Shown here in pieces: positions 15,990 to 39,455 of a stretch of 41,349 bases of DNA (its first letter is position 1; every line of letters starts with the position of its first letter). The position numbers and the translations under genes are program-made. Origin of the DNA: an uncultured Oscillospiraceae bacterium (lineage in GTDB: Bacteria; Bacillota; Clostridia; Oscillospirales; Oscillospiraceae); the NCBI GenBank assembly GCA_949935795.1, contig CATLFX010000022.1, positions 1-41,349 of the forward strand, in the 5' to 3' direction. The notes under the pieces were generated by a model, which was given only the letters and a program-made list of their open reading frames with translations, did no database searches and was not told the origin of the DNA.

Positions 15990-16091
15990 TATACTGTTAG
16001 TTTGATATGTTTTTGTGCGTATCCGCCAAAAATCCCGGAAGGAAATTCCAGCCCCGGCGGGCGGGGCCTTTATGAAAGAGAGGGACATTCC

Positions 16092-16742
16092 ATGAAAAAG
16101 CATATTCTCTGCCTGGGGGACTCCAACACCTTCGGCTACTGCGCCGACCCCTCCGACTGCGCCGACGGCGGCTGCCGCTTCAACGAGGACGAGCGGTGGA
16201 CCTGCCGCCTGCAAGCCGCCCTGGGGCCGGACTACCTGGTCACTGAGGAGGGGCTGGGGGGGCGCACCACCGTGTTTCCCGACCCCCTCCACGAGTCCAT
16301 GGACGCGCTGAGCGTGCTCTACGCGCTGCTGAAAAGCCACGAGCCGGTGGACCTGCTCATCATCATGCTAGGCACCAACGACACCAAGGAGCGGCTGGGG
16401 ATGAACGCCGCCTGCATCGCCCTGGGCATGGACCGGCTGGTGCGCAAGGCTCAGGCCACCGACTGCTGGGGGGACCGCGCCCCCAACATCCTCATCGTCT
16501 GCCCGCCCCCTATCCTGCCGCTGATGGAGCAGGCGGAGTGCGGCGTTCCCATGGGCCGGGGCTGTGTGGAAAAGTCCAGGGAGCTGCCCAAATACCTCAG
16601 CGCCACCGCGCGGCAGCTGGGCTGCCACTACCTGGATGCGGCCCCCTGCCAGTTCAACCCGGTGGACGGGATGCACCTGACCCGGCAGGGCCACGCGCAG
16701 CTGGCCCAGATGCTGGCGGAGCTGACCCCCACTCTTCTGTAG
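16092..16742 (+). CDS. SGNH/GDSL-family esterase
   Basis: 216 residues, no signal peptide, so cytoplasmic. The four SGNH blocks are present: GDSN with nucleophile S11, G57 in EGLGGRTT, GTND with N96, and D192-x-x-H195 in VDGMHLTRQGH. The GDSNTFGY block resembles the arylesterase-like subgroup. Removal of O-acetyl groups from imported sialic acids or other glycans would fit its position divergent to the amino-sugar operon; that substrate is inference from context. The ATG at 16092 is chosen for AGAGGG 7 nt upstream and block I at residues 9-12. A strong terminator follows. Confidence 0.85.
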   Translation: MKKHILCLGDSNTFGYCADPSDCADGGCRFNEDERWTCRLQAALGPDYLVTEEGLGGRTTVFPDPLHESMDALSVLYALLKSHEPVDLLIIMLGTNDTKERLGMNAACIALGMDRLVRKAQATDCWGDRAPNILIVCPPPILPLMEQAECGVPMGRGCVEKSRELPKYLSATARQLGCHYLDAAPCQFNPVDGMHLTRQGHAQLAQMLAELTPTLL

Positions 16743-16753
16743 AGATCAAAAGG

Positions 16754-16780
16754 GACCGTGACGCCCCAGGCGTCACGGTC
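16754..16780. terminator. terminator between SGNH esterase and TetM-like gene
   Basis: A 12-bp perfect stem (16754-16765 with 16769-16780) and a 3-nt loop, 11 bp after the esterase stop. On the plus strand it is followed by CTCTTCT; on the minus strand by CTTTTGATCT. It can serve both converging genes. Confidence 0.8.
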
Positions 16781-16785
16781 CTCTT

Positions 16786-19380
16786 CTATCCGCTGATGAT
16801 CCGGTGGATCTCCCCCTCCGCCTGCTTGAGCTCGAACTCCAGCTCGGCGGCGGGCATACGCACCGCCCCGTGGCCCAGAATGATCATCTGCTCCAGGCCG
16901 TCGGAGGTGGCCACCCGCACCCGGTGCTCCCGGCGCTCCTTCGCCAAAGCGTAGGTGGTCTTCTCAATATACATATCCGCCGTCTCCGCCTCTTTTGTGT
17001 ACACCACCCACAGGTCCCCCATCCGCTCGATGCTGCCGGGGTTTCCCTTCACCTTGTAGGCGTCGAACACCACGATGACCTTGCACCGCTTCCACCCCTG
17101 GTAGTTGCGCAGCCGGTGGATCAGCCGCTCCCGGGCGCTGTCCAGGTCCTCCCGGCCCAGTGAGCGCAGCTCGTCTAAAGCGTGGATGATGTTATAGCCG
17201 TCCACCAGCAGGAAATCGTCGCCGTCCCGGACCTTCAGCCCCTTCCAGGGCTTGGGCTTGGGGGCGGCGCTTTTCTGCACCGGCCGGAAGGCGTGGGGCT
17301 GCTTCACCGGGCCGTAGGCCCGCTCAAAGATGGCCTCCAGCTCCTTGTCCAGCGCCGCCCGGGACTCGTAGCTCATGGCCTCCCGGCGGACGGGGGCGGA
17401 CTCGGCCTGGACGGGGCGATCCTCAGGCGGCCTCCAGCCGCTGTCCAGGTGCATGTGCTCCCGCACCTGGTCCCAGGGCACGTTGAACCCCGCCCCGTGG
17501 GCGCAGAACACCGACCCGGAGGGGTTGTCCACATCCCGGTCCGGGTCATAGCCCGCCGCCTCCACGACGGCCTCCCCGTTGTGGCAGGGCCGGTAACCCT
17601 CCACCACGCAGGAAAACCGCCCTCTCCCCCCGGTGTAAGCCGCCACCTCGGACCAGTACCCCCCCGCCTCCGACACCGGGACCGCGCCGGTGAGGACGGA
17701 CAGCTCCCCGTCTCCCTCCGGGGGCTGGAACTCCGCCCCCATCCGCTGGAGGTCGGTCATGGCCCGGCCCACGCTCCCCGTGGGCACCTCCAGCCGGAAG
17801 GCGTACCAGGGCTCCAGCAGAACGCTTTTGGCGCTCATCAGCCCCTGGCGCACCGCCCGGTAGGTGGCCTGGCGGAAATCCCCGCCCTCGGTGTGCTTGA
17901 GATGGGCCCGGCCCGTCAAAAGCGTGATTTTCATGTCCGTGATGGGCGAACCGGTGAGAACGCCCAGATGGGTCTTTTCCATCAGGTGGGTCAAAATGAG
18001 CCTCTGCCAGTTCCGGTCCAGCTCGTTTTCCGGGCAGGCGGTGTCCAGTACCAGCCCCGCCCCCCGCTCCAGGGGCTCCAGCAGCAGGTGGACCTCGGCG
18101 TAATGCCGCAGGGGCTCGAAGTGGCCCACCCCCTCCGTCGGGGCGGCGATGGTCTCCAGATACACAATGCGGCCGGGGCCGAAAGCCACCTCCGCCCCGA
18201 ACCGGCGCTCCATCAGCCGGGAGAGCACCTCCAGCTGCACCTCTCCCATGAGATGGACCCGGATCTCCCCCGGCAGCTCGTTCCACTCCACCTGGAGCTG
18301 GGGGTCCTCCTCCTCTAAAATCCGCAGCTGGGCCAGCAGGGTGTGGACGTCCCCCCCGGCGGGGGGCAGCACCTGATAGGCCAGCACCGGCTCCAGCTCC
18401 GGGCCCGCCCAGTCCTCCTCCGCCCCCAGGCCCTGGCCCGCATGGGTGCGGCTCAGTCCAGCGACGGCGCACACCGCCCCCGCCGGGACCTCCTCCGCCG
18501 GGGTGTATTTGGCCCCGGAGTACAGCCGGAGCTGGGTAGCTTTTTCCTCCCAGTCCGGGCCCTTCACCAGGTCCCGGACCTTTAAAACGCCACCGGTCAC
18601 CTTCAGCCAGCTGAGCCGCTCCCCCTTGTCGTCCCGGGAGATTTTGTACACCCGGGCGGCGAACTCCTCCGGCCAGTCCGGCTCAAGGGTGAACCGATCT
18701 AGCCCGTCCAGCAGCTCCTCCACCCCCTCCGCCCGGAGGGCGGACCCAAAATAACAGGGAAACAGCCTGCGCTCCACGATGAGGGCGGACAGGTCCCCGT
18801 CGTCCAGCGTCCCCGTCTCCAGATAGCGCTCCATCAGCTCCTCATCGCACAGGGCGGCCTGCTCCAGCAGCTCCTCCCAGCCGCCGGAGAAATCGGCGCA
18901 GCCGTCGCTCAGCCGCGCCCGCAGCTGGGCCAGCAGCTTGTCCCGGTCCGTGTCCGGCTGGTCCATCTTATTGATGAACAGGAAGGTAGGCACCTGGTGG
19001 CGCTCCAGCAGCTTCCAAAGCGTCTCCGTATGCCCCTGCACCCCGTCCGACCCGCTGATGAGCAGCACGGCGTAGTCCATCACCTGCACCGCCCGCTCCA
19101 TCTCGGCGGAAAAATCCACGTGGCCGGGGGTGTCCAGCAAGGTGATCTCGCAGCTCTTCCAGGTCATCCGGGCCTGCTTGGAGAAAATGGTGATGCCCCG
19201 CTCCCGCTCCTGCTGGTCGGTATCCAGGAAAGCGTCGCCGTGGTCCACCCGGCCCAGCCTGCGCACCCCGCCGGACAGGTACAGCATGGCCTCGGACAGA
19301 GTGGTCTTTCCCGAGTCCACATGGGCCAACAGGCCCGTACAAAGGCGCTTGATATGTTTATTTTCAAGGCTTCCAGCCAC
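16786..19380 (-). CDS. TetM/EF-G-like ribosomal GTPase fused to Rae1/YacP-like NYN nuclease domain
   Basis: 864 residues from a GTG start preceded by GGGGGTG. N-terminal GTPase: G1 AHVDSGKTT (19-27), switch RGITI (61-65), G3 DTPGHVDF (83-90), G4 NKMD (137-140), G5 GSAL (212-215). Domains II-V of the TetM/TetO kind follow, with IV-V near 410-630. The loop that in TetM carries the tetracycline-displacing YSPVST motif is different here (about 491-501, containing HLKHTEGG), so drug resistance should not be assumed. After a linker (about 650-720) comes a NYN/PIN-like domain (722-850) strongly like B. subtilis Rae1 (YacP): VDGYN (D727), VVFDAYKVKG (D773), YTKEAETADMYIEK (E799, D802) and VATSDGLEQ (D827). 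Rae1 cuts mRNA in the ribosomal A site, the same site TetM-type GTPases enter. A ribosome-targeted nuclease is therefore the inferred role. Confidence 0.88.
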   Translation of the reverse strand: MAGSLENKHIKRLCTGLLAHVDSGKTTLSEAMLYLSGGVRRLGRVDHGDAFLDTDQQERERGITIFSKQARMTWKSCEITLLDTPGHVDFSAEMERAVQVMDYAVLLISGSDGVQGHTETLWKLLERHQVPTFLFINKMDQPDTDRDKLLAQLRARLSDGCADFSGGWEELLEQAALCDEELMERYLETGTLDDGDLSALIVERRLFPCYFGSALRAEGVEELLDGLDRFTLEPDWPEEFAARVYKISRDDKGERLSWLKVTGGVLKVRDLVKGPDWEEKATQLRLYSGAKYTPAEEVPAGAVCAVAGLSRTHAGQGLGAEEDWAGPELEPVLAYQVLPPAGGDVHTLLAQLRILEEEDPQLQVEWNELPGEIRVHLMGEVQLEVLSRLMERRFGAEVAFGPGRIVYLETIAAPTEGVGHFEPLRHYAEVHLLLEPLERGAGLVLDTACPENELDRNWQRLILTHLMEKTHLGVLTGSPITDMKITLLTGRAHLKHTEGGDFRQATYRAVRQGLMSAKSVLLEPWYAFRLEVPTGSVGRAMTDLQRMGAEFQPPEGDGELSVLTGAVPVSEAGGYWSEVAAYTGGRGRFSCVVEGYRPCHNGEAVVEAAGYDPDRDVDNPSGSVFCAHGAGFNVPWDQVREHMHLDSGWRPPEDRPVQAESAPVRREAMSYESRAALDKELEAIFERAYGPVKQPHAFRPVQKSAAPKPKPWKGLKVRDGDDFLLVDGYNIIHALDELRSLGREDLDSARERLIHRLRNYQGWKRCKVIVVFDAYKVKGNPGSIERMGDLWVVYTKEAETADMYIEKTTYALAKERREHRVRVATSDGLEQMIILGHGAVRMPAAELEFELKQAEGEIHRIISG

Positions 19381-19425
19381 TTTTTCACCCCCTAATCAGG
19401 GAAGCTCCGAACACATATTAGAAGG

Positions 19426-19434
19426 ATTATAGCA
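19426..19434 (-). promoter_or_regulatory. extended -10 promoter of TetM-like/NYN gene
   Basis: Minus strand TGCTATAAT, an extended -10 element, about 46 bp upstream of the GTG start. No convincing -35 is seen, which is acceptable for extended -10 promoters. Confidence 0.55.
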
Positions 19435-19496
19435 CAAGGCAGGCCGTTAGTCGATAGGTATTTCTTTCGGGCCGCTTTTTCGCAGGTTGTAATATT

Positions 19497-19551
19497 AAAC
19501 GCGAAAGAACACGAAGCCCTGTGAACGGGGCGGTTCGGTTCTTTCGCGTTT
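19497..19551. terminator. long hairpin terminator downstream of the M20 operon
   Basis: An outer 14-bp perfect stem (19497-19510 with 19538-19551) encloses a further imperfect stem. On the plus strand it is followed by TATTTTTTAT; on the minus strand by AATATTACAACC. It lies 180 bp past the M20 peptidase stop and upstream of the TetM-like promoter. The rest of the 350-bp gap (19552-19730) is GC-rich and shows no gene or clear site. Confidence 0.75.
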
Positions 19552-19730
19552 ATTTTTTATATCATAGCAGGCCGGTTCTGGACCGGAACCGGCGGCGGGC
19601 TTATAGACCGGTTATCGCCCAGCGCCCATTTGTCAAACCCCCATCTGCCCGCCTGGAGGCTGAGTCCGCAGGCATTCAAAAGGGACGGGGCCGGCGGCGC
19701 ACACAGCGGCCCCATCCCGCTCCAAACTGG

Positions 19731-21305
19731 TTACCGCTCCTCCTGGGCGCGGATGAGGTTCTTGTAGAAGTCCACCGCGCCGGGCAGGCAGTCCACACCC
19801 ATGGTCTCGTTGAGGCCGTGCATCCCCCTCATCTGCTCCGGCCCGGCCACCACCGGGGCAAAGCGGATGCAGTTGTCGCAGATGGCCTGATAGAAGCTTG
19901 CGTCGGTGGCCCCGGTCATCACGTAGGGGCACACGGGCAGCTCGGGGAAGGTGTCGCTGATGACACGCTCCACCTGTCGGAAGGCCGCGCCGCGGATATC
20001 CACCGGCTTGGTATAATCGCTGGAGTGCATGATCTCCATCTCCAGGCCGTACTTGGCAGCCACCGCCCGGATCACCTCCAGGCTCTCCCGCTCGCCCTGG
20101 TGGGGGATGAAGCGCATATTGGCGCTGACGCTGGCCTCCTGGGGCAGGACGTTGCAGGCGTCCGACCCGGACTGCATGGTAAAGGCGATGGTGGTCTGGA
20201 GCATGGCCGCCGCCTGGGCGGAGATGGCGGGCATGACCTTTTTCATCACCGGGCCGAACAGCCACAGGTTGCCCATCACCAGCCGCAGGTGGAAGGGCGC
20301 GTAGGGCGACAGCCGCCGGAACATGGCTTTGACCTCCGGCAGGAATTTACGCCGGAAGGGGGGCCTGGTCTCCACCTCATGGACGAAGGCGGACAGCCGG
20401 GCGATGGGGGTGTTTTTCCCCGGGGCGCTGGCGTGGCCGCCGGAGCTGCGGGCGGTAAAGCGCACGTCGGCCTTGCCCTTCTCAAACACGCCCACCATGG
20501 CGAAGTTGCCCTTCACGCCGCCGATGGGGTCGGTGATGACGCCGCCCCCCTCGTCGATGACCAGGAAGGGGCGCACGTTCCGGCGCTGGAGCTCGGCCAC
20601 CAGCTTGGGGGCCCCGTCCCCCGCCCACTCCTCGGTGCAGGAGGAGGCCAGGAAGACGTCGCACTCCGGCACATAGCCCTCGGCCAGCAGCTCCTCCACC
20701 CCCTGGAAGAAGGCCATGAGGGAGGCTTTCGTGTCGAAGGCGCCCCGGCCCCAGACCTTACCGTCCACAATGGCCCCGGAGAAGGGCGGGTGGAGCCATT
20801 CGCCCTCGGCGGGCACCACGTCCTGATGACTCATAAGGACGATGGGGGCGGCGCTGGTGCGGCCCTTCCAATAGAACAGCAGGTTGCCGTCAATGACGGT
20901 CTTTTCCAGGTTTTGATGCACCAGGGGGAACAGCTTTTCCAGCTCCCTGTGGAAGGCCAGGAACTTCTCCGTCTCCTCCACCCCGGCGTGGGAGGTGGTG
21001 TCGCACTGGACCATGGCGGACAGCTTCCGGGCGTAATCCATGGCCCTGTCGTCGGGGACGGGGACGTACTGGGATTTTTTCTTCGGGGTCAGGGCGGTAT
21101 GGAGCACCGCCGCCCCCAGAGCGGTTCCCAACCCGATGCCCACTCCCGCCAGGGCCGTTTTGGCGGCTTTCGCGCAGGGGCACTGCTTCGGCGGCTCCGG
21201 CTGGCGGCGTTTGGGCACGTTTCGGGCCGCCGCCTTGTCCAGGAACAGCTCCCCGGCCTTTTTCGCGGCCATCAGGGCCAGCGCGCGCTTGTGACGTTTC
21301 TTCAT
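19731..21305 (-). CDS. membrane-anchored M20 family metallopeptidase
   Basis: 524 residues. A basic N-terminal tail (1-48) with a CPC motif precedes one hydrophobic segment (about 50-72). The M20 dizinc peptidase follows: LMSHQDVVPAEGEW (H160, D162), GRGAFDTKAS (bridging D191), TEEW (catalytic E225, ligand E226), DEGGG (D251) and GMHGLNETMG near the C-terminus. It resembles the PM20D1/carboxypeptidase S branch, which hydrolyses N-acyl amino acids or short peptides. The ATG overlaps the preceding membrane-protein gene by 4 bp (ATGA), coupling the two. Last gene of the aconitase-X operon, so it likely supplies or processes that pathway's substrate. Confidence 0.88.
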   Translation of the reverse strand: MKKRHKRALALMAAKKAGELFLDKAAARNVPKRRQPEPPKQCPCAKAAKTALAGVGIGLGTALGAAVLHTALTPKKKSQYVPVPDDRAMDYARKLSAMVQCDTTSHAGVEETEKFLAFHRELEKLFPLVHQNLEKTVIDGNLLFYWKGRTSAAPIVLMSHQDVVPAEGEWLHPPFSGAIVDGKVWGRGAFDTKASLMAFFQGVEELLAEGYVPECDVFLASSCTEEWAGDGAPKLVAELQRRNVRPFLVIDEGGGVITDPIGGVKGNFAMVGVFEKGKADVRFTARSSGGHASAPGKNTPIARLSAFVHEVETRPPFRRKFLPEVKAMFRRLSPYAPFHLRLVMGNLWLFGPVMKKVMPAISAQAAAMLQTTIAFTMQSGSDACNVLPQEASVSANMRFIPHQGERESLEVIRAVAAKYGLEMEIMHSSDYTKPVDIRGAAFRQVERVISDTFPELPVCPYVMTGATDASFYQAICDNCIRFAPVVAGPEQMRGMHGLNETMGVDCLPGAVDFYKNLIRAQEER

Positions 21306-22009: not shown

Positions 22010-22768
22010 CTAGACGGCCAGCCGCAGCAGCACCGCCGCGGCCATGCCCACCAGCATACTGCCCGCGATAGAGAAGCTCTCCAGCCAGGCCATGCCCTTT
22101 TTCTCCGACAGGTAGACGCACCCGGCCATAGTCAGGGCGGACACCCCCGCCACCGCCAGGGGCGTCCAGTCCCCGGAAAAGGTAAACAGCCCCTCCCCGG
22201 ACACGAATCCGCCAATGTAGCTTCCCACATAGGCGCAGATCAGGCCGATGAACATGGCGGTCATGGCCTTATCGCCAAAGCCAGCCGCCCCGCCTCCGCC
22301 GGAGGAGCCCGACCCGCCCAGCTTTTTCAGATACCGCTTGCTGAACAGGGTGGACAGCAGCATCCCCCATATAATGCACACGCTCATCAGCAGGGCGATG
22401 GTGGTGAAGGCCCGGGGCGTCATCTCGGCGGCGGACAGGGAGGACATGCCCACCTGCTCGGCGGCGGCCTGGGCCACCTGGGTCTCGTAGTGGAGGGCTC
22501 CCACCACCGACAGCCTCAGCCAGGGCCAGGGGGTGCCCAGACTGCCGGACAGGGCGATGACCCCCAGCAGGATGCCTATGCTGGGCAGGATGGTAAAGGT
22601 GACGCTGGAGGTGATGACCCGGCGCATTTTGGTTTTGTCCATGCCCAGGGCCACCCCGGCCCGCCAGGCCCGGATCATAAACACGACGCAGATCACGGCC
22701 ACAAAGGCGACGATGCCGCCGCACACGGCGTAGATCGCGGGGCCGTTCAGTTGGGATAATATCGTCAT
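22010..22768 (-). CDS. DUF5058 family membrane protein
   Basis: 252 residues with six or so membrane segments. The stretch MRRVITSSVTFTILPSIGIL followed by LGVIALSGSLGTPWPWLRLS matches what I know of DUF5058. A Gly/Ser-rich hinge (SGSSGGGG) splits it near residue 155. The ATG at 22768 is chosen for GGAGG 5 nt upstream and because longer frames run into the aconitase-X small-subunit gene. Function unknown; with the next membrane protein it may form a transporter serving the aconitase-X pathway. Confidence 0.72.
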   Translation of the reverse strand: MTILSQLNGPAIYAVCGGIVAFVAVICVVFMIRAWRAGVALGMDKTKMRRVITSSVTFTILPSIGILLGVIALSGSLGTPWPWLRLSVVGALHYETQVAQAAAEQVGMSSLSAAEMTPRAFTTIALLMSVCIIWGMLLSTLFSKRYLKKLGGSGSSGGGGAAGFGDKAMTAMFIGLICAYVGSYIGGFVSGEGLFTFSGDWTPLAVAGVSALTMAGCVYLSEKKGMAWLESFSIAGSMLVGMAAAVLLRLAV

Positions 22769-22779
22769 AGGCTCCTCCG

Positions 22780-23229
22780 TCAGATGATCTGGACCCTGCC
22801 GTCGGGCAGCACGTTGATGGTCATACCGTCCTGGACATAATTCAGAAACTCCTCCCCCAGGCTGTCCACCACCGGCATGGAGGTATGGTCCCCCTCCAGC
22901 CACACATCGGCCAGCACCGCCCCGGCGGCGGCCAGGGAGTCGATGGGCTCGGAGAACAGCAGGCAGGCGGGCTGACGGCCCATGGAGCAGGCGCAGTACA
23001 GCACCAGACCCCCGGTGGTGGAGCCGATGGTCCGGGGCAGGCACAGGGCTTTGCCCGCCATCTCCTTGCCATAGAGGTCGGGGTTGTTCTGGTCGCCGCA
23101 GGTGGCCTTTTTGTCGCCAAACTGCAAAGCCTTTTGGAAAGAGGCCAGGGTATTCAGCCCTCCGTGGGATACCAGGGCTTTTGCTGTGAGTTTTCCCGGA
23201 GATACCACCCGTCCTTGAAACTCGCGCAT
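22780..23229 (-). CDS. aconitase X small subunit (DUF126, swivel domain)
   Basis: 149 residues. The swivelling domain of aconitase X, encoded separately from the large subunit as in type II members. Recognisable parts are the N-terminal GKLTAKALVSHGGLNTLASF, LPRTIGSTTGGLVLYCA and SEPIDSLAAAGAVLADVW. Its ATG lies 1 nt beyond the large-subunit stop, so translation is coupled. Bacterial aconitase X enzymes characterised so far are cis-3-hydroxy-L-proline dehydratases; archaeal ones are mevalonate-5-phosphate dehydratases. The former is likelier here. Confidence 0.88.
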   Translation of the reverse strand: MREFQGRVVSPGKLTAKALVSHGGLNTLASFQKALQFGDKKATCGDQNNPDLYGKEMAGKALCLPRTIGSTTGGLVLYCACSMGRQPACLLFSEPIDSLAAAGAVLADVWLEGDHTSMPVVDSLGEEFLNYVQDGMTINVLPDGRVQII

Positions 23230-23230
23230 C

Positions 23231-24514
23231 TCAATTGCCCCCTTTCGTGATTTGGACCAGAATCTCGTCGTCGGTGTAATAGCGGGCCGTGGTGTAGGTG
23301 CGCAGCTTGTTGCTGGAGGTGATGACGGGCATTTTGCCGCTGAGGGGGTTGTTCATGTACATCAGCGGGCAGATATAGCTGAGGATGACGCCGGTTTGTT
23401 TCAGCCGTTCCGCATAAGGCGTGGCCTCAAACTCCTTAATGACCGCCGGAGCGGCGGTAAACACAGTGGGGATGACCACCTTTTTCTTCCCGGATTCCTT
23501 CAAACCCCGCTCCACCCGCTGGGTCCAGGTGGTGAGCTGCTCCAAACTCATGTGGGGACAGCCCATGAAGCACAGCTTGGGTTTGGCGTTCTTGTTCTTC
23601 CACACCAGCGGGTAGCTGTCGTACACCCGCTGGAGCTCCGCGTCGTCCACCACGTAGACCTGGGCGTCCTCCGCCACCAGCTCCCGGCCCAGCCGGACCG
23701 CCTCGGGGGTAATGCCCTCCACGTGGTACAGCCCCACCGCGCCATTGGAGGCCGTGGCCGCGCCAAAATCCTTGAGGTAGGTTTTCGCCCCGTCGTCCAG
23801 AGTGCCCAGCCACTGGTCCAGCCCCACGATATAGGGCACGTCCTCCATGACCTTCATGCCGATGGCGGAGCCCAGCAGCTGGGCCTCCGGCTTTTTGGTG
23901 GTCTTGATCTCCACCACCCACGTCGCCTTTCGGCCCTCGTCGGTGAGCAGTCCGAAATTCGGCACATAGCCCACCACCGAGCCCATCAGATCAATGATGC
24001 CCGAATTGCGGTTGCACCGGGCCCCTAAAACGGAATTGGCGTAGACCACGGCAGAGGACTCCGACCAGGACAGGATATCCCCCTCTTTGGGGGTGTTGCC
24101 CACCTGGTCCATGTAGCAGGCGCAGGTAAAGGCGTCCTTGTCCATCAGTCCCAGCTTTTGGAGCTGTTCCTCATAAAAATCCTGCTTGGTGTACATGAAG
24201 TTCTGAAACACGAAGTTTTGCAGGAAGGAGCTGGGGACGTTTTTATCCAGCGGCCGGGGGTCGGCGGAGAATTTCTGCTGAGACGCCGCGCCCTCAGCGA
24301 TGAGTTTGTCCATCAGGTCATATACCGGCCCCAGGGCCTTCAACCCGAAGGAGGTGACCAGGTGGTTGTACTGGCTGGTGACGGGAACCATGGAGTCCGC
24401 GCCGAACAGCTCACCGTAGCGCACCAGGGTCTCCATCACCTTGGCCAGAGTCTCGCCCTTTTCGCCATCTAAGATGGCCTGTTGTTCGGCGGTCAGCTTC
24501 ATTTTTTCGCTCAT
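23231..24514 (-). CDS. aconitase X large (catalytic) subunit (DUF521)
   Basis: 427 residues. Conserved aconitase-X signatures include WSESSAVVYANSVLGARCNR (150-169), GLDQWLGTLDDG, and C319 in GCPHMS with C382 in ICPLMYMNNPLSG as likely iron-sulfur ligands; C167 in GARC is a further candidate. Expected reaction: dehydration of a hydroxy acid, probably cis-3-hydroxy-L-proline to pyrroline-2-carboxylate. It follows the flavoenzyme gene by 9 bp and precedes the swivel subunit. No frameshift or lost motif seen. Substrate assignment rests on family knowledge; the operon partners (OYE-type reductase, transporter-like genes, M20 peptidase) do not match the classical proline-racemase-linked clusters. 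Confidence 0.88.
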   Translation of the reverse strand: MSEKMKLTAEQQAILDGEKGETLAKVMETLVRYGELFGADSMVPVTSQYNHLVTSFGLKALGPVYDLMDKLIAEGAASQQKFSADPRPLDKNVPSSFLQNFVFQNFMYTKQDFYEEQLQKLGLMDKDAFTCACYMDQVGNTPKEGDILSWSESSAVVYANSVLGARCNRNSGIIDLMGSVVGYVPNFGLLTDEGRKATWVVEIKTTKKPEAQLLGSAIGMKVMEDVPYIVGLDQWLGTLDDGAKTYLKDFGAATASNGAVGLYHVEGITPEAVRLGRELVAEDAQVYVVDDAELQRVYDSYPLVWKNKNAKPKLCFMGCPHMSLEQLTTWTQRVERGLKESGKKKVVIPTVFTAAPAVIKEFEATPYAERLKQTGVILSYICPLMYMNNPLSGKMPVITSSNKLRTYTTARYYTDDEILVQITKGGN

Positions 24515-24523
24515 ATGCCCTCC

Positions 24524-26581
24524 TTATATCCTCATGGCCGCCTCATAGGCGCCCCAGACCACGGTCTTGACGTTGCCCACCTGCTTGCAGTCGCCCACGA
24601 AATGGATGTTTCGCCCCTTGCCCTCCAGCGGCCGGGGCAGGTAGCCCACGGAGCTGATGACACTGTCACAGGGAATTTCAATCGTTTTGCCGTCCTTGTC
24701 CTGGCAGAGGACCTTGTCCTCATGGACGGCGGTGAGGATGGTCTCCAGGTGGACGGGCACCCCGTGGAGGGCAAACCACTCCCGGAGATAGGAGCTGTTG
24801 GCCAGGCACACGCCCTTTTGCGCCACCAGGTCGTTCTTCATCTCAATGATGACGGCCTCCTTGCCCTGGAGGGCCAGCTCATAGGCGATTTCGCATCCGG
24901 TGAGCCCGCCGCCGACGACGGCTACCCGCCGCCCCACGGCCTTCTCCCCGTTCAGGAATTCGATGGCTTCCACCATCCGCTCGTGGCCGTGGATGCCCCG
25001 CAGGACAATGGGGGACGCGCCGGTGGCCACGATGACCTGGTCGGTGCCGAACCGGGTCACGTCTTTGATCTCTGTGTCATAGTGGACCTCCACTTTCAGT
25101 AGCTGCATCTGCCGCTCATACCAGGCCAGCAGGTCCCGGAGCTTCCCCTTGTAGGATTCCGCCCCGGCGGCAATGAAGGCCCCGCCCAGGCGGTCGCTCT
25201 TTTCGTAAATGATAGGCTCGTGTCCCCGGAGCTTGAGCACCCGGGCCGCCTCCATGCCGCCCAGCCCGCCTCCGATGATATGTACCCGCTTTGGGGAGAC
25301 GGCCTTTTTGATGTAGTGCCTGTCCCACTGCATGGTTTCCGCATTGACGGCGCACCGGGCCAGATTCAGGCTGTCCCCCAGGTCCTGGTCGTTGGGGACG
25401 CCCTCGTAGTGGCACATATTGAAGCAGCCGTTGTGACACAGGATGCAGGGCCGGATGTCCTCCTCCCTGCCCTCCATCAGCTTGGTCACCCACTGCTGGT
25501 CGGCCAGGAACTGACGGGCAAAGCCCGCGCCGTCCAGCTTCCCCGCCGCGATGGAGTCCGCCGCCGTCCCGGGGTCCAGCCGCCCGGCGCACACCACCGG
25601 GATGTCCACGAACTGCTTGATGTGCTCCACGTCGGCCAGGTTGCAGTTTTCCGGCATATAGATGGGCGGGTGGGCCCAGTACCAGGCGTCATAGGTGCCG
25701 TTGTCGCAGTTGAGCATGTCGTACCCGGCGTCCTGGAGGTACTTGGCGGCGCGCTCCGATTCCTCCATATCCCGGCCCGCCTCCACGAAGTCCTCCCCGG
25801 GAAGGGCGCCTTGGCGGAAGCCCTTGGTCTTGGACACCACGCTGTAACGCAGAGAGACAGGGAAATCCTTTCCGCAGGCCGCCTTGATGGCTTGGACGAT
25901 CTCCACTGGGAAGCGGTAGCGGTTCTCGAAGGAGCCGCCGTATTGGTCGGCGCGCTTGTTCACGTATTTCAGCGTGAACTGGTCCAGCAGATAGCCCTCG
26001 TGGACGGCGTGGACCTCCACCCCGTCCACCCCCGCCTCCTGGAGGAGCTTGGCGGTCCGGGCGAAGGCGTCCACAAACTCCTGGATCTCCGCCACCGTCA
26101 TCTCCCGGGAGGGCACCTTGTCCGACCAGCGGTTGGGAGAGGGGCTGGCGGAGGCGGTGATTTTATCCAGATCCATAAAGGGCTTGGAGACGGCCCGCAA
26201 GGCCGGGTTGGTATACAGCGCCTCCATCATGGAGCTGATGGTGAAGGAGCGGCCAAAGCCCGCCGTCAGCTGGACGAACAGCTTGGCCCCCGTCTTGTGG
26301 AACTCGGGCATCCAGGCGGCCAGATCCCGGTACATCTTCTTGTTCTTGTGGAGCCACTGGCCAAACATGGGATTGTACACTGGCTGACAGCCGGGGAGCA
26401 CCAGCCCCACATTGTTTTTCGCCGCCTCCATGATGAACCGGGCCCCGGCCTTGTCGAAGTGGTTTTTCTCCATCCAGCCGAACAGGTCGGTGCCCCCCAT
26501 GGAGGTGAGCACCACGCGGTTCTTGATCTCACAGCTTCCGATGCGCCACGGGGTAAACAACGGGTTTAATCTTTCGTCCAT
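24524..26581 (-). CDS. NADH:flavin oxidoreductase, 2,4-dienoyl-CoA/2-enoate reductase type (FMN, 4Fe-4S, FAD)
   Basis: 685 residues in three parts. Residues 1-370 are an Old Yellow Enzyme TIM barrel with VEVHAVHEGYLLDQF (188-202), where H191 and H194 sit at the substrate-site position. Next come cluster cysteines C379-x2-C382-x3-C386 and C410; the gap to the last Cys is about 12 residues longer than in E. coli dienoyl-CoA reductase. The C-terminal part binds FAD (IIGGGLGGMEAARVL, from 435) and NAD(P)H (VAVVGGGLTGCEIA). It reduces C=C bonds of an enoate, dienoate or imino-type substrate. First gene of the aconitase-X operon, so it may reduce the dehydration product or a related unsaturated acid. 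Confidence 0.9.
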   Translation of the reverse strand: MDERLNPLFTPWRIGSCEIKNRVVLTSMGGTDLFGWMEKNHFDKAGARFIMEAAKNNVGLVLPGCQPVYNPMFGQWLHKNKKMYRDLAAWMPEFHKTGAKLFVQLTAGFGRSFTISSMMEALYTNPALRAVSKPFMDLDKITASASPSPNRWSDKVPSREMTVAEIQEFVDAFARTAKLLQEAGVDGVEVHAVHEGYLLDQFTLKYVNKRADQYGGSFENRYRFPVEIVQAIKAACGKDFPVSLRYSVVSKTKGFRQGALPGEDFVEAGRDMEESERAAKYLQDAGYDMLNCDNGTYDAWYWAHPPIYMPENCNLADVEHIKQFVDIPVVCAGRLDPGTAADSIAAGKLDGAGFARQFLADQQWVTKLMEGREEDIRPCILCHNGCFNMCHYEGVPNDQDLGDSLNLARCAVNAETMQWDRHYIKKAVSPKRVHIIGGGLGGMEAARVLKLRGHEPIIYEKSDRLGGAFIAAGAESYKGKLRDLLAWYERQMQLLKVEVHYDTEIKDVTRFGTDQVIVATGASPIVLRGIHGHERMVEAIEFLNGEKAVGRRVAVVGGGLTGCEIAYELALQGKEAVIIEMKNDLVAQKGVCLANSSYLREWFALHGVPVHLETILTAVHEDKVLCQDKDGKTIEIPCDSVISSVGYLPRPLEGKGRNIHFVGDCKQVGNVKTVVWGAYEAAMRI

Positions 26582-35025: not shown

Positions 35026-38000
35026 TCAGGCGCGGGTGCCGGTGGCGTTGCGGTACATAAAGGTCACGATCTGCTCACGCAGGCAGTAGCCGTTGGGGCT
35101 GAACTTGACGGTGCTGCCGTCGCCGTTGGTGATGCCCTTGCCGACCGCCCAGGACACGGCCTTGGCGTAATACTCGCTGCTGGGCACATCATAGAAGCCG
35201 CTGTTGGTGCTGGCGGCGGGCTCACCCGCGGCGCGGTACAGGAAGGTCACGGCCTCGCCGCGGGTCACGGCGCGGCCCACGCCGAACTGGTTGGCGCTCA
35301 CGCCCTTGGTGATGCCGTTCTTAACGGCCCACATCACGGCGTTGTAGTAGTAGCTGCCGACCTGCACATCCCAGAAGGGATTGCTCACGCCGGTGACGAT
35401 GGGGGAACCGGCGTTGCGCCACAGGAAGGTCACCATATCCTCGCGGGTGCAGCTCTTGCCGGTGCCGAAGCGGTAGACGCTGCCGTCGCCGTTGGTGATG
35501 CCGCGGCCGACGGCCCAGCCCACCGCGTTGGAGAAGTAGTCAGTGGACCAGACATCCTCAAAGAGGGTGCCGTTGTTGCGGTCGAACCTGGGGGTGACCA
35601 CCACGTTGGTGACGCCGGAGGGCACGATGAAGCTAAAGGTGTTGGCCCCGGTGCGGGTGGCGGTAGCGTTGGTGACGTAAATACCCATGGTGCGGTAGCC
35701 GGTGGCGGGGCTGACGGTCACGGAGACCGGCGTGCCGGGAGCCACCTGGCTGTTGCCCGCGCTGGTGACGGCGGTGCCGCCGACGGCCGGGTTGGACACG
35801 GTGACGGTGGCGTTGGTGTTCACCTTGACAAAGGACGGGGTGACGGTGACGCTGGTAGCGCCGGTGGGCACCACGAAACGCCAGCTGTTGGCGGAGGCCG
35901 CCGTGGTGCTGACAGTGGTGTTGGTGGTAACGCCGGTGGTGCTGTTCTTCACCGCCGCGGTGACGGTGACGCCGCCCACGCGGTAATTGGCCGCCGGGGT
36001 CAGGGTGACGGTGATGGTTTCGCCCTCGTCGGCGCGGGAGGCGCTGAGGCTGGCGGAGCCGCCCGTGACGCTGGCCACGCTGATGGCAATGGGCTTCTGG
36101 GTGGGAGTGGTGGGCTTGACGGTATCCCTTGTCAGCTGGATGGTATAATAGATACCAGCCGTCTTCTCCGCGAACACCACATTGCTGCTGGTGGCGTTGC
36201 TAATGGTAGCGTTGCCGTGGGTGTCGACATAAATGGTACGGGCGTCGCCGCTCATGGTGATGGGGAAGTTCTGGTTCATCGGGGACAGCACTTCCACCTG
36301 CTCGCCGTTCTTCGCGTCGTCTACGGCAGCCTGGATAGTGTCATACAGCTTCGGTCCACCCTCCGCCGCCGTAAAGGAAATGAATTTCTTACTTGCATCG
36401 TCGTACTTTTTCAGCTCCACCGGAGCGGACACCGCGTTGAGGACGATGGTGCCGAAGCCGTTGCCGTTAGCGGCGGCGTGGGTGATGGTAAAGTCCGCAG
36501 TCTTTGGCGTTTGTGTCGGCGTCACTTTATAAACATACGTACCATTCTGGTGAGCCACATTGCCGCCCACCATATAGCTGCTGCCTACCGGGAGCTTGAC
36601 ATCGACCTCGCCCACCTCGCTGTTGAGGGCCCGCAGGGGCTGGCCGGTACGTACCACGATGGGGGTCTCATTTTTCGTGGTGGAGGTGCCGTACGCGTCA
36701 TTATTGTGCCACACCTCTACCTTCATGTAGGGGGCCATCACGGCGGTGAGGGAGCCCGGTCTTGCCGAATCGCTCCACTGGCTCACCCGGACATCCATGT
36801 ACAGGATGGCTACTACCTTGGAGTAGCCGGTACCCTCCCGCTGGGTCTGGGTCGTGGGGTTCTGCTTATGCACTGCGTAGTACGCCTGATTCTGGGCCTG
36901 GGTGCGCCAGGAGTCCACTTGAGCTTTGTCAATACCGGCGATAGCCGAGCCAAAAGCCTCCAGCACGGCGGGGCTGTCGGAGAAGTCCACTTCGCCGCCG
37001 CTCATGGCCTTAGCCAGGTTCTCATTGTTCGTCTGAGCGTTGGTCCCGGTGTAAACCGTGGAGGTGGTCACAATCTTGGCCTTAGAGGGGTTCGTGCCTG
37101 TCCCGTCGCCGTTACCGGCAAAGTTCAGGCCCACGGCCTCCACCTTCAGCCCCGCGTTTTGCAGGGTGTACTTGACGTTGTTCACCGTCAGCTGGACGGA
37201 CTTGCCCTCGTCAGCCAGACGCATAGCGCCCTTAGTGGCCTTGGTGGGGTCGGTGGAGAAGGTGAGGGAATTGGTGCTGGGCACCCAAGCCGCTTTCAGG
37301 TCCACGTCGCCCGCGTCGGTCTTCAGCCGCAGGTCGATGGTGGCGGTGTTCTTACCGGCTGTGATGCCGGACACAGAGCCCTTCAGCTGGATGGTGTTGC
37401 CCACCAGCTTGACTTCCACACCGGGGTTACTGCCGTTCAGCGGCACCACCACATTGTTCACCTTGGTGATGGTGTAGCCCACAACGTCCGTAAAGAACTC
37501 CACCTTATCGCCGGTCGGATTGACAGGCAGGGTATAGGACTGCTTTCCGGCCCAGGTGGTGGTGGAAGAAGCCCCCTGATTCCACTCCACGATGGACAGA
37601 CCGCCCACCTTGCTGGGCATCTGGATACTAATGTCCGTGGCGGTCTTGGTGTAGGTGAACTCAAAGGCCTTCTCACTTGTCGTCCCACCCTTGTACATGG
37701 TCACAGTGGCTGCGGCACCACTGTCGGTACCAATGATCTTAGTGGTATGGGTTTTGCCGGGAGTCTCCCAATAGGCCACCAGCTCGTCAGTCCGTGCGCT
37801 GGGCCAGTAGGTGGTTGCATTGTCAACCCTATCTTCATAGAGCAGATCGCCGTTGAGCAATTCGATATTGGCATTCGTAATGGCTGTTGAGAACTTGCCG
37901 CCCGCAATGGTGTACTTGGTCCACTTGGCCATATTCGTGGCAACCACGCTGGTAATCGTGTTGTTATCCAGAGAGGGGTTGGAGGAATGGGCGGGGATGG

Positions 38001-39303
38001 TCACGGTGATGTTGTTCACATTGTCCGCCGCCTCCGTGACCGCACCCAGGCTGGAGTTCCCCTGCTGGTACATGGTCACCGTCACGGAGCCGGGGAACGT
38101 CTTGCTGCCCAGCGTCGTAGTACCCACGCTGGAGCGGTTGGTGGCGTTGGCCTGACCCAGGGCCACACTGCCCGAGGCCAGCGACAGGGTGCCAATCGCG
38201 CCATTGTTCACCTTGATATCCGCATTGAGCAGGTCCACAGCGGTCACCGTGCCGTTCCCTGTCACGTCGAGGGACACGCCCTTGGTAAGCACATCGGTGT
38301 TCGCGGCGGGAGTGGTAGTATTCTTGACAGAATCCACCACACAGCCATAGCCGTTGACATTGATGTCGGCGGCGGCCTGTTCCTTCTGGGTGGTGTCAGT
38401 GGTGCCGAACACGGTGACATCGCCCACCTTGCTGGAGACGATATCCAGGTGGGTGCCGTAGCCCGTGAGCTCAATGGAGGTGACCTTGGTGGCGACATTT
38501 GTCACGTCAACATCGCCGCCGTTGGTGCTGTTTACCTTAACAGCACCGGCCTTCGCCAGAGAGCCGCTCAGAGCGACCGTACCGCCGGAGGTGGCCACAG
38601 TGCCCGTAGAGGTGGCGGGGACGCTCTTAACAGTGATGTCATTGGCCTCGGCATTGGTCACGTTCACGACGCCGGTGCCAACATGATAAATCGAGATATT
38701 CTTGCTGGCCGCCATCTTGACATTGGTCAGATTGAGCGTGAAGTTTTTGCCGTTTCCGGCGCCGATCCCGCCCACCGTGATGTCGCCGTCGACTACAGAG
38801 CCAGCCTTGATTGCGCCAGTATCATCCAGTCTGTCCGTGATGGTCAGGCTGGTGAGGGGGGTTGTGCTCAAGATGTTAGCGTTCCATGTCAAGGTTCTGC
38901 CATTCAAGTCAACGGTCAGGGAGGTCAGCGCTTTCAGGTCGCTGATCGAACCGTCCGCAACCAGTTCAAAAGCGCTGACGCCGCTCGCAATCGCCAAATC
39001 GGCCGATGCGTACCATTTGGCGTTCTGGCCGTTGGTCCAGGCCCCGGTAGCCGCCACAACGCCGCCGACCGCGTACAGTTTCTGGGTGCTGGTGATATAA
39101 TACCAGCCGTCCGCCGGTATCTCAATATCGCCGACTTTTGCGTCCTTGGTATAGTAGATCATGTCCACGATTCCATTGCTCTCCACTGTCGCAGTGAAGC
39201 CGCTGGGAGCCGTGGGAGCCGTTGTCGCCGCGAACGCGGAAACCGGCAGCAATGTCAGCACCATGGCCAGGGCCAGGGCCGCCGACAAAAGTCGTTTCTT
39301 CAT
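35026..39303 (-). CDS. large SLH-domain cell-surface protein
   Basis: 1425 residues. Signal peptide 1-25 (ending VSAFA). The first about 450 residues are Thr/Val/Asn-rich with repeated short strands (ITVKSVP..., VKVNSTNGGDVDVTNV), probably a beta-helix. A central part (about 450-1060) is more varied. Two related beta modules follow (near 1075-1240), each ending in a PTGATSVTVTPSF- or PSGVTNVVVTPRF-like strand. The C-terminus carries three SLH repeats (about 1247-1300, 1310-1361, 1370-1420) that anchor to pyruvylated wall polymer. The start used has AAGGAGG 6 nt upstream, but an in-frame ATG at 39393 also has a strong GGAAGGAGGG box. Low Cys and high Thr/Val/Asn are typical of S-layer or adhesin proteins. 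Confidence 0.9.
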   Translation of the reverse strand: MKKRLLSAALALAMVLTLLPVSAFAATTAPTAPSGFTATVESNGIVDMIYYTKDAKVGDIEIPADGWYYITSTQKLYAVGGVVAATGAWTNGQNAKWYASADLAIASGVSAFELVADGSISDLKALTSLTVDLNGRTLTWNANILSTTPLTSLTITDRLDDTGAIKAGSVVDGDITVGGIGAGNGKNFTLNLTNVKMAASKNISIYHVGTGVVNVTNAEANDITVKSVPATSTGTVATSGGTVALSGSLAKAGAVKVNSTNGGDVDVTNVATKVTSIELTGYGTHLDIVSSKVGDVTVFGTTDTTQKEQAAADINVNGYGCVVDSVKNTTTPAANTDVLTKGVSLDVTGNGTVTAVDLLNADIKVNNGAIGTLSLASGSVALGQANATNRSSVGTTTLGSKTFPGSVTVTMYQQGNSSLGAVTEAADNVNNITVTIPAHSSNPSLDNNTITSVVATNMAKWTKYTIAGGKFSTAITNANIELLNGDLLYEDRVDNATTYWPSARTDELVAYWETPGKTHTTKIIGTDSGAAATVTMYKGGTTSEKAFEFTYTKTATDISIQMPSKVGGLSIVEWNQGASSTTTWAGKQSYTLPVNPTGDKVEFFTDVVGYTITKVNNVVVPLNGSNPGVEVKLVGNTIQLKGSVSGITAGKNTATIDLRLKTDAGDVDLKAAWVPSTNSLTFSTDPTKATKGAMRLADEGKSVQLTVNNVKYTLQNAGLKVEAVGLNFAGNGDGTGTNPSKAKIVTTSTVYTGTNAQTNNENLAKAMSGGEVDFSDSPAVLEAFGSAIAGIDKAQVDSWRTQAQNQAYYAVHKQNPTTQTQREGTGYSKVVAILYMDVRVSQWSDSARPGSLTAVMAPYMKVEVWHNNDAYGTSTTKNETPIVVRTGQPLRALNSEVGEVDVKLPVGSSYMVGGNVAHQNGTYVYKVTPTQTPKTADFTITHAAANGNGFGTIVLNAVSAPVELKKYDDASKKFISFTAAEGGPKLYDTIQAAVDDAKNGEQVEVLSPMNQNFPITMSGDARTIYVDTHGNATISNATSSNVVFAEKTAGIYYTIQLTRDTVKPTTPTQKPIAISVASVTGGSASLSASRADEGETITVTLTPAANYRVGGVTVTAAVKNSTTGVTTNTTVSTTAASANSWRFVVPTGATSVTVTPSFVKVNTNATVTVSNPAVGGTAVTSAGNSQVAPGTPVSVTVSPATGYRTMGIYVTNATATRTGANTFSFIVPSGVTNVVVTPRFDRNNGTLFEDVWSTDYFSNAVGWAVGRGITNGDGSVYRFGTGKSCTREDMVTFLWRNAGSPIVTGVSNPFWDVQVGSYYYNAVMWAVKNGITKGVSANQFGVGRAVTRGEAVTFLYRAAGEPAASTNSGFYDVPSSEYYAKAVSWAVGKGITNGDGSTVKFSPNGYCLREQIVTFMYRNATGTRA

Positions 39304-39455
39304 GTACTTCTTCCTCCTTGTTTCTGGTTTAAGCAGCTGATTTCGCCGGTCTGGCCGGCAGTGTTTGTCCCGTTCCGGGGCGTGGCCGGGCATACGGCCC
39401 TCCTTCCATCGGAATGATTGGCTGACGCCTCCGACGCCACAGTTATACGGCTACT

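Follow-up and report, generated by a model that had tools for sequence, protein, structure and literature searches.

A translation-factor GTPase joined to a Rae1/YacP-type nuclease domain in gut Clostridia

The contig CATLFX010000022.1 (assembly GCA_949935795.1) of an uncultured Oscillospiraceae bacterium was analyzed over a stretch of 41,349 nucleotides, here called the window. At 16786..19380 on the minus strand it contains a gene for a protein of 864 amino acids (GTG start codon, stop codon included), in which a GTPase of the EF-G superfamily is fused to a nuclease domain of the Rae1/YacP type (NYN domain). The fusion is real, widespread and maintained, and it is found in many gut Clostridia. 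Judged from the sequences, fusion and free Rae1 appear to be alternatives, the fusion having taken the place of the separate enzyme. The protein is probably a GTPase-tethered Rae1 that has replaced the free form and cuts mRNA on stalled ribosomes. This reading is based on the fusion itself, intact motifs, the Rae1 fold, the clade structure, the lack of a second NYN domain and an empty operon slot, from which we infer ribosome binding, mRNA cleavage and the order of the steps.

Domain organization of the fusion protein

The domain pair had been located in a preliminary description of the window, and its coordinates as well as the combination of EF-G-type domains with NYN_YacP were confirmed by Pfam. 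All parts lie on the minus strand. The G domain (residues 15-230; 18691..19338) was detected as GTP_EFTU (PF00009, 4e-51) and contains the complete set of motifs, G1 AHVDSGKTT, G2 RGIT, G3 DTPGH, G4 NKMD and G5 GSAL, which had been described as intact and are invariant or nearly so in a 33-row alignment. An alignment gap shows that the G-prime insert known from EF-G is almost completely missing. Domain II (residues 240-316; 18433..18663) reached 24 bits with EF-G_D2 (PF22042), just below the cut-off of 27, and is also backed by the fold comparison of the model, which covered residues 6-612; the NYN domain was folded and compared separately. Domain III (residues 330-401; 18178..18393; EFG_III PF14492, 1.6e-9), domain IV (residues 404-518; 17827..18171; EFG_IV PF03764, 1.7e-15) and domain V (residues 520-601; 17578..17823; EFG_C PF00679, 6.9e-16) complete the hallmarks of the EF-G superfamily. 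The tip of domain IV, recognizable by conserved columns, carries the loops GHFEPLRHYAEV and HLKHTEGGDF.

Domain V is followed by a C-terminal extension (residues 602-650; 17431..17577) that contains an SxFC motif and has the form GSVFCAHGAGFNVPWDQV...MH in the window protein. Its model confidence is about 80-90 per block of ten residues. Eleven orthologs without NYN domain (L202-L206, L267-L272) stop 24 to 32 residues past the start of the SxFC motif. Since they end there, the apparent start of the linker is the GTPase's own end, behind which the NYN domain was added.

The linker proper (residues 651-719; 17224..17430) was modelled mostly with low confidence (pLDDT below 50 at residues 655-672 and 693-717), and its length, measured in 98 of 107 proteins, ranges from 69 to 118 residues with a median of 77.5. 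It includes a short conserved motif (residues 676-692; 17305..17355), identified from alignment columns, with a short helix around DxELxxIFERTYG. E680, L681 and G690 of this motif are invariant in 51 of 51 rows. In the more diverse set of 33 rows the motif is weaker, with E680 alone near-constant (97%) and I684 and T688 at 85%; the window protein carries A688.

The nuclease domain and its relation to Rae1

The NYN domain occupies residues 720-864 (16789..17223) and was assigned by Pfam (NYN_YacP, residues 724-859, 2.3e-44, 151.7 bits at a cut-off of 24.6) and by structure comparison. Residues 727, 773, 802 and 827 are all aspartates, as the preliminary description had stated, and align with D7, D53, D81 and D105 of Rae1/YacP of Bacillus subtilis (PDB 5MQ8/5MQ9; E 7e-23; Rae1 residue numbers counted by hand from the alignment). 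Identity to 5MQ8/5MQ9 is 41-42% over about 140 alignment columns. Modelled alone, the domain shares with Rae1 the whole core fold including the four acidic residues. Rae1 has been described as an endoribonuclease of the ribosomal A site (PMC6613710) and as destabilizing mRNAs in a translation-dependent manner (PMC10100781).

Rae1/YacP is a stand-alone protein with a C-terminal tail, encoded in an rlmB-sigH operon in the relatives examined, whereas the domain in the window is joined to a GTPase, encoded elsewhere in the genome and tail-less. Its Pfam match ends at profile position 135 or 141 of 166, while the stand-alone NYN_YacP domains among the matches listed end at 158-166. According to the tail lengths, the Rae1 tail was lost in many members of the fusion family.

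The GTPase family

The best NCBIfam model for the GTPase is tet_protect, aligned over positions 3-614 of 614. The fusion stays below the curated threshold of the Tet model NF012153 (397 bits; threshold 775). In the fusion family, domain IV has a conserved tip that is unlike that of both Tet and EF-G: Tet rows have IHIEVPPNPFWA and YYSPVSTPADF at the places of GHFEPLRHYAEV and HLKHTEGGDF; in EF-G rows the corresponding loops are RQSGGRGQYG and one of the form YHxVDSSEMAF. The YSPVSTP-type loop is presumably the drug-displacing loop of the Tet proteins; its replacement (HLKHTEGGDF instead of YSPVSTPADF) had already been noticed and holds. Displacement of the drug is attributed to the domain IV loops of Tet proteins (PMC4342817). 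The family pattern of loop I was present in 37 of 44 fusions and 10 of 11 NYN-less orthologs, and that of loop III (HxxHTxxGD) in 39 of 44 and 11 of 11. YSPVSTP was found in none of these 55 family rows versus four of 17 Tet-like rows.

From an alignment of 84 rows, 12 near-identical rows were dropped for a 72-row tree, and 41 rows were used for a more careful tree. In the 41-row tree, the family (fusions and NYN-less orthologs) forms a clade with support of 100/99, apart from a Tet-like clade (99/92). Grouping of the family with bona fide Tet proteins was rejected in this tree (AU test, p 0.00017). On these sequence grounds the GTPase is a family of its own within the EF-G superfamily, sister to the Tet-like group. 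Of the former designation as TetM-like, a distant likeness is left; the family stands beside the Tet-like clade and exists without a NYN domain in 11 sampled genomes.

With Tet(M)/Tet(O)-type proteins the fusion shares the EF-G-type domains I-V, a small G-prime region and an extension after domain V, but it differs by its separate clade, other domain IV loops, another and longer extension and the added nuclease domain. EF-G has the same G1-G5 motifs and five-domain fold; in contrast to it, the fusion is nearly without G-prime insert, has an unlike domain IV tip and carries the extension and the NYN domain.

Thirteen fusion genomes of the order sample (see below) also encode a separate protein of 644 or 662 amino acids that reaches 386-394 bits, and for two of these proteins (L216, L217) NCBIfam confirmed the assignment to Tet. 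A broad set of further Tet-like GTPases (L207-L215, L218, L274; 639-755 amino acids) was collected, whose members in the 41-row tree form a separate branch. Five that were tested (L209, L211, L214, L215, L218) all lie below the Tet cut-off and have the domain IV tip HTHPLDF or HTHPMDF, with MPKPCWA. A lone GTPase of 669 amino acids (L273, genome G490) is sister to the whole fusion family (100/98, 41-row tree) and shares a tip of the form HTHGGDF.

Distribution of the fusion

The search was carried out on an order sample of 197 genomes (at least 90% complete) and a phylum sample of 398 genomes (at least 95% complete), with the window's own genome excepted from both. GTPase matches were listed at E <1e-100 in the order sample and E <1e-145 in the phylum sample, and the three weakest phylum matches (G490, G531, G387; 500-563 bits) were left out of the family.

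In the order sample, NYN_YacP was detected in 79 genomes and lies within the fusion frame in every one of them. A joining by assembly error, which the preliminary description had kept in view, was rejected on account of these genomes and of named isolates with the fusion (Faecalibacterium An121, Pseudoflavonifractor An507, Intestinimonas An565). Both profile ends are covered in 76 of the 79 genomes; in the others (G160, G124, G154) the match is cut by contig ends. A second NYN_YacP match occurs in two genomes. In G160 it covers the profile end in a 43-amino-acid frame on another contig and is probably the detached end of this genome's fusion gene; in G189 it is below the cut-off. Five genomes (G183, G052, G088, G119, G018) contain the GTPase without NYN domain. 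G042 has a 379-amino-acid GTPase piece only, without NYN domain, and its class was left undecided.

In the phylum sample, NYN_YacP was present in 229 genomes, in 224 of them above the cut-off. The fusion was found in 30 genomes and the NYN-less GTPase in seven (G052, G467, G359, G379, G471, G417, G510). Each of the 30 fusion genomes has exactly one NYN_YacP domain; the search for a stand-alone yacP beside the fusion, which had been proposed as a check, thus yielded none.

Sister fusions had been expected under generic names, and they are indeed filed by NCBI as 'translation factor GTPase family protein'. A scan of named genomes with an alignment of linker plus NYN domain revealed at least 588 relatives. 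Of the best 80, which were kept, 70 had the GTPase frame at E <1e-100, and the full-length filter left 64. The full-length fusions among these best 80 include members from Faecalibacterium, Flavonifractor, Intestinimonas, Lawsonibacter, Oscillibacter, Butyricicoccus, Blautia and Herbinix.

Some matches came from unusual records. Two fecal 'Bacteriophage sp.' records, MT835563.1 and MT835514.1, matched 100% and 95% of the extension-linker-NYN query. They may represent bacterial DNA that entered phage collections, or the gene may be prophage-borne. Matches were also obtained in L307 (Monoglobus, 518 kb) and L308 (Agathobacter rectalis, 252 kb), two large circular records that are classed as non-mobilizable plasmids. 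The genes concerned measure 2589 and 2802 bases, respectively, which corresponds to the size of the fusion. The match in L308 adjoins a BrnT toxin/CopG antitoxin pair.

Apparent replacement of the free enzyme

The rlmB loci of 14 genomes were inspected, namely six chosen for their stand-alone yacP, seven fusion genomes and G052. All six genomes with stand-alone yacP show the order mrnC, rlmB, yacP, sigH, one of them with thyX ahead of rlmB. None of the seven fusion genomes has yacP beside rlmB. In four of them (G392, G519, G532, G315) rlmB and sigH are adjacent with no yacP in between, separated by a gap of 47 to 356 bases; the opposite flank carries mrnC or thyX. The loci of G011, G141, G021 and G052 are uninformative on the yacP slot because only rlmB was found there.

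The full stand-alone order is also present in a record of Clostridioides difficile (cysS, ribonuclease III domain protein, thyX, rlmB, NYN, sigH). This record, NZ_CP149721.1 (L309; 96,641 bases), continues behind sigH with tuf, nusG and genes for ribosomal proteins; it looks like a piece of chromosome that was assembled as a circle. It is one of 12 C. difficile 'plasmid' records; for the eight that were listed, a match to the NYN query was obtained and rlmB is covered as well.

Origin of the fusion

Fusions and the NYN-less protein L202 form a clade with support of 100/100 in the 41-row tree, and the fusion clade has a support of 99 in the 72-row tree. Forcing L202 outside the fusions was rejected (AU p 0.018, 41-row tree), so one later loss of the NYN domain in L202 is the simplest explanation. 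The placement of the other NYN-less rows varies among three trees: they appear as successive branches, as one group (85, 72-row tree) or as three groups at an unresolved fork (41-row tree). Since the Tet-like and EF-G rows used here have no NYN domain, a single gain by the GTPase, in an ancestor of these Clostridia, would be the simplest history.

For the NYN tree, near-identical rows (five fused and three stand-alone) were dropped. It unites, at 100/99, 39 fused domains and one stand-alone domain (S_L087); the 24 other stand-alone domains are placed separately. S_L087 comes from a genome of the same class (G541) and adjoins rlmB. It is read as the pre-fusion form, and it may alternatively be a gene that was split again.

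Proposed function and alternatives

In the proposed mechanism, the conserved domain IV tip would enable the GTPase to recognize ribosomes whose A site is stuck or empty. The A site would be reset by GTP hydrolysis, with domain IV swinging out, and the NYN domain, kept close by the flexible linker of about 70 residues, would then enter the A site and cut the mRNA as Rae1 does. The cut message would be passed on to rescue and decay. A tethered nuclease would need no docking tail, if docking is the role of the Rae1 tail; such a sequential action would agree with the length and flexibility of the linker and with the missing tail of many members. Possibly, and more tentatively, the protein is a GTP-gated single-chain nuclease of ribosome quality control, in which the GTPase tests the A site and hands over to its tethered endonuclease. 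It is the only form of Rae1 in the order sample (79 of 79 NYN-bearing genomes), and the linker motif would dock a partner from decay or rescue. A comparable logic exists in eukaryotes, where Hbs1/Dom34 is paired with an endonuclease.

Several observations weigh against a GTPase-tethered Rae1 that cuts mRNA. Factors of the EF-G type (EF-G, TetM) occupy the A site with domain IV. The earlier picture of a GTPase putting the nuclease into this site thus has a clash, and as domain IV and the NYN domain cannot share the A site, the action would have to be sequential or directed at another part of the mRNA. The 11 NYN-less orthologs keep the tip loops, which indicates a task of the GTPase that is independent of the nuclease. 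The window copy has L at residue 735, a position at which W is found in 98% of 107 fused NYN domains and 25 of 25 stand-alone ones that were compared. Fused NYN rows alone form one group in 14% of the bootstrap trees, a low value because S_L087 falls inside them at 83/87. The replacement of Rae1 may be one inherited event and not many independent ones. Separate NYN_YacP domains are present in four of the seven phylum genomes with NYN-less GTPase (G467, G359, G379, G417, in G417 outside its 651-amino-acid GTPase frame) and in none of the other three. This had been considered as proof of a partnership and was dropped, as it is no enrichment over all non-fusion phylum genomes (199 of 368, five of them below the Pfam cut-off). 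The fusion is the only NYN_YacP shown for the window's own genome, which proves little as this genome is about 70% complete. No conserved neighborhood of the GTPase genes that would point to a pathway was found by simple blastp clusters in 118 given loci with 107 GTPase genes (five NYN-less; many on short contigs), the commonest neighbor family being near only eight of the 107. Finally, no functional study of any fusion member was found in the literature, with Leroy 2017 and Condon 2018 outside the search.

Three other functions were considered. That the nuclease acts on rRNA or tRNA, which would make the protein a factor of ribosome maturation, quality check or hibernation instead of an mRNA cutter, is unlikely. 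The GTPase side belongs to the general ribosome machinery, stand-alone yacP adjoins an rRNA methyltransferase gene, and NYN/YacP proteins were earlier proposed to take part in rRNA and tRNA maturation (PMC4342817), but the closest solved relative is Rae1 with its translation-dependent effect on mRNAs (PMC10100781) and its cleavage in the A site (PMC6613710). The chain could also hold two independent jobs, a GTPase clearing a ligand or stall from the A site and an ordinary Rae1 for which the joining would mean no more than co-expression and a place near ribosomes. Such a division would suit the NYN-less orthologs with their retained tip loops and extension, the long linker of mostly low model confidence and the later NYN loss in L202; it is rather improbable, as the fusion was kept through a deep clade (100/100) and the shed Rae1 tail of many members together with the conserved linker motif suggests an adaptation to the joined state.

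A ribosomal protection protein of the tetracycline type that uses the RNase as a new resistance mechanism, as supposed by Atkinson 2015, is very doubtful. The domains I-V of the fusion with, as in Tet proteins, an extension behind domain V, the full-length alignment to tet_protect and the NCBI annotation of at least one member as TetM/TetW/TetO/TetS family agree with this proposal. Against it stand the score at about half of the curated cut-off, the rejected grouping with bona fide Tet proteins, the lack of YSPVSTP in the family and the separate Tet or Tet-sized proteins in 13 fusion genomes. In addition, the promoter-like site described below leaves little room for a drug-sensing leader, and no recombinase or transfer family was matched by Pfam, the only search made for mobile genes, among the 18 other window proteins scanned.

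Genomic surroundings of the gene

A promoter-like site (TCGACT-17-TATAAT with TG ahead of the second hexamer; 19426..19454, minus strand) is located about 45 bases ahead of the start codon, and a terminator-like hairpin of 13 pairs (16753..16781, minus strand) follows immediately past the stop codon. Both are consensus matches: one promoter-like site was found in a scan of 16500-19900 versus 0.5 expected by shuffles, and three terminator-like sites were found in the stretch versus 1.7 expected. Because of these two sites, the fusion gene looks like a transcription unit of its own. Its upstream neighbor is an M20 peptidase gene (19731-21305, minus strand) and its downstream neighbor a convergent GDSL lipase gene (16002-16742, plus strand), both assigned by Pfam. 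No match at gathering scores was obtained with Rfam over the window. Elsewhere in the window, an aconitase X gene (23231-24514) lies beside an NADH:flavin oxidoreductase gene (24524-26581), both on the minus strand, with a DUF5058 gene nearby (22010-23044). An open reading frame of 1455 amino acids with S-layer homology domains is located at 35026-39393 on the minus strand.

Relation to earlier work and significance

The architecture was already known. Among the literature searched, with Leroy 2017 and Condon 2018 outside the search, PMC4342817 was the only source seen to describe it. In that paper, Tet proteins of ten clostridial species are said to have acquired a YacP-like NYN domain, and a role in resistance was guessed (Atkinson 2015, PMC4342817). 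These proteins have the same architecture as the fusion; there they are filed under Tet, whereas here the family lies outside the Tet-like clade, is widespread and stands in for Rae1. As far as the literature was searched, the separation from Tet with the other domain IV tip, the link to Rae1 and its apparent replacement are new, and so are the probable single NYN gain, the one NYN domain per fusion genome of the phylum sample, the empty rlmB-sigH slot in four of seven fusion genomes, the NYN-less orthologs, the tail loss and the linker motif.

At least one member from a gut species is annotated as a tetracycline resistance protein even though its family is outside the Tet clade; annotations of this kind could make resistance genes seem more numerous than they are. 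To our knowledge, it is an open question how Rae1 reaches particular ribosomes. The joining of Rae1 to a GTPase and the loss of the free enzyme suggest that the event in which Rae1 cuts also involves a GTPase step. The fusion is one purifiable protein on which this idea could be examined, with the natural NYN-less orthologs and the NYN loss in L202 as ready-made controls.

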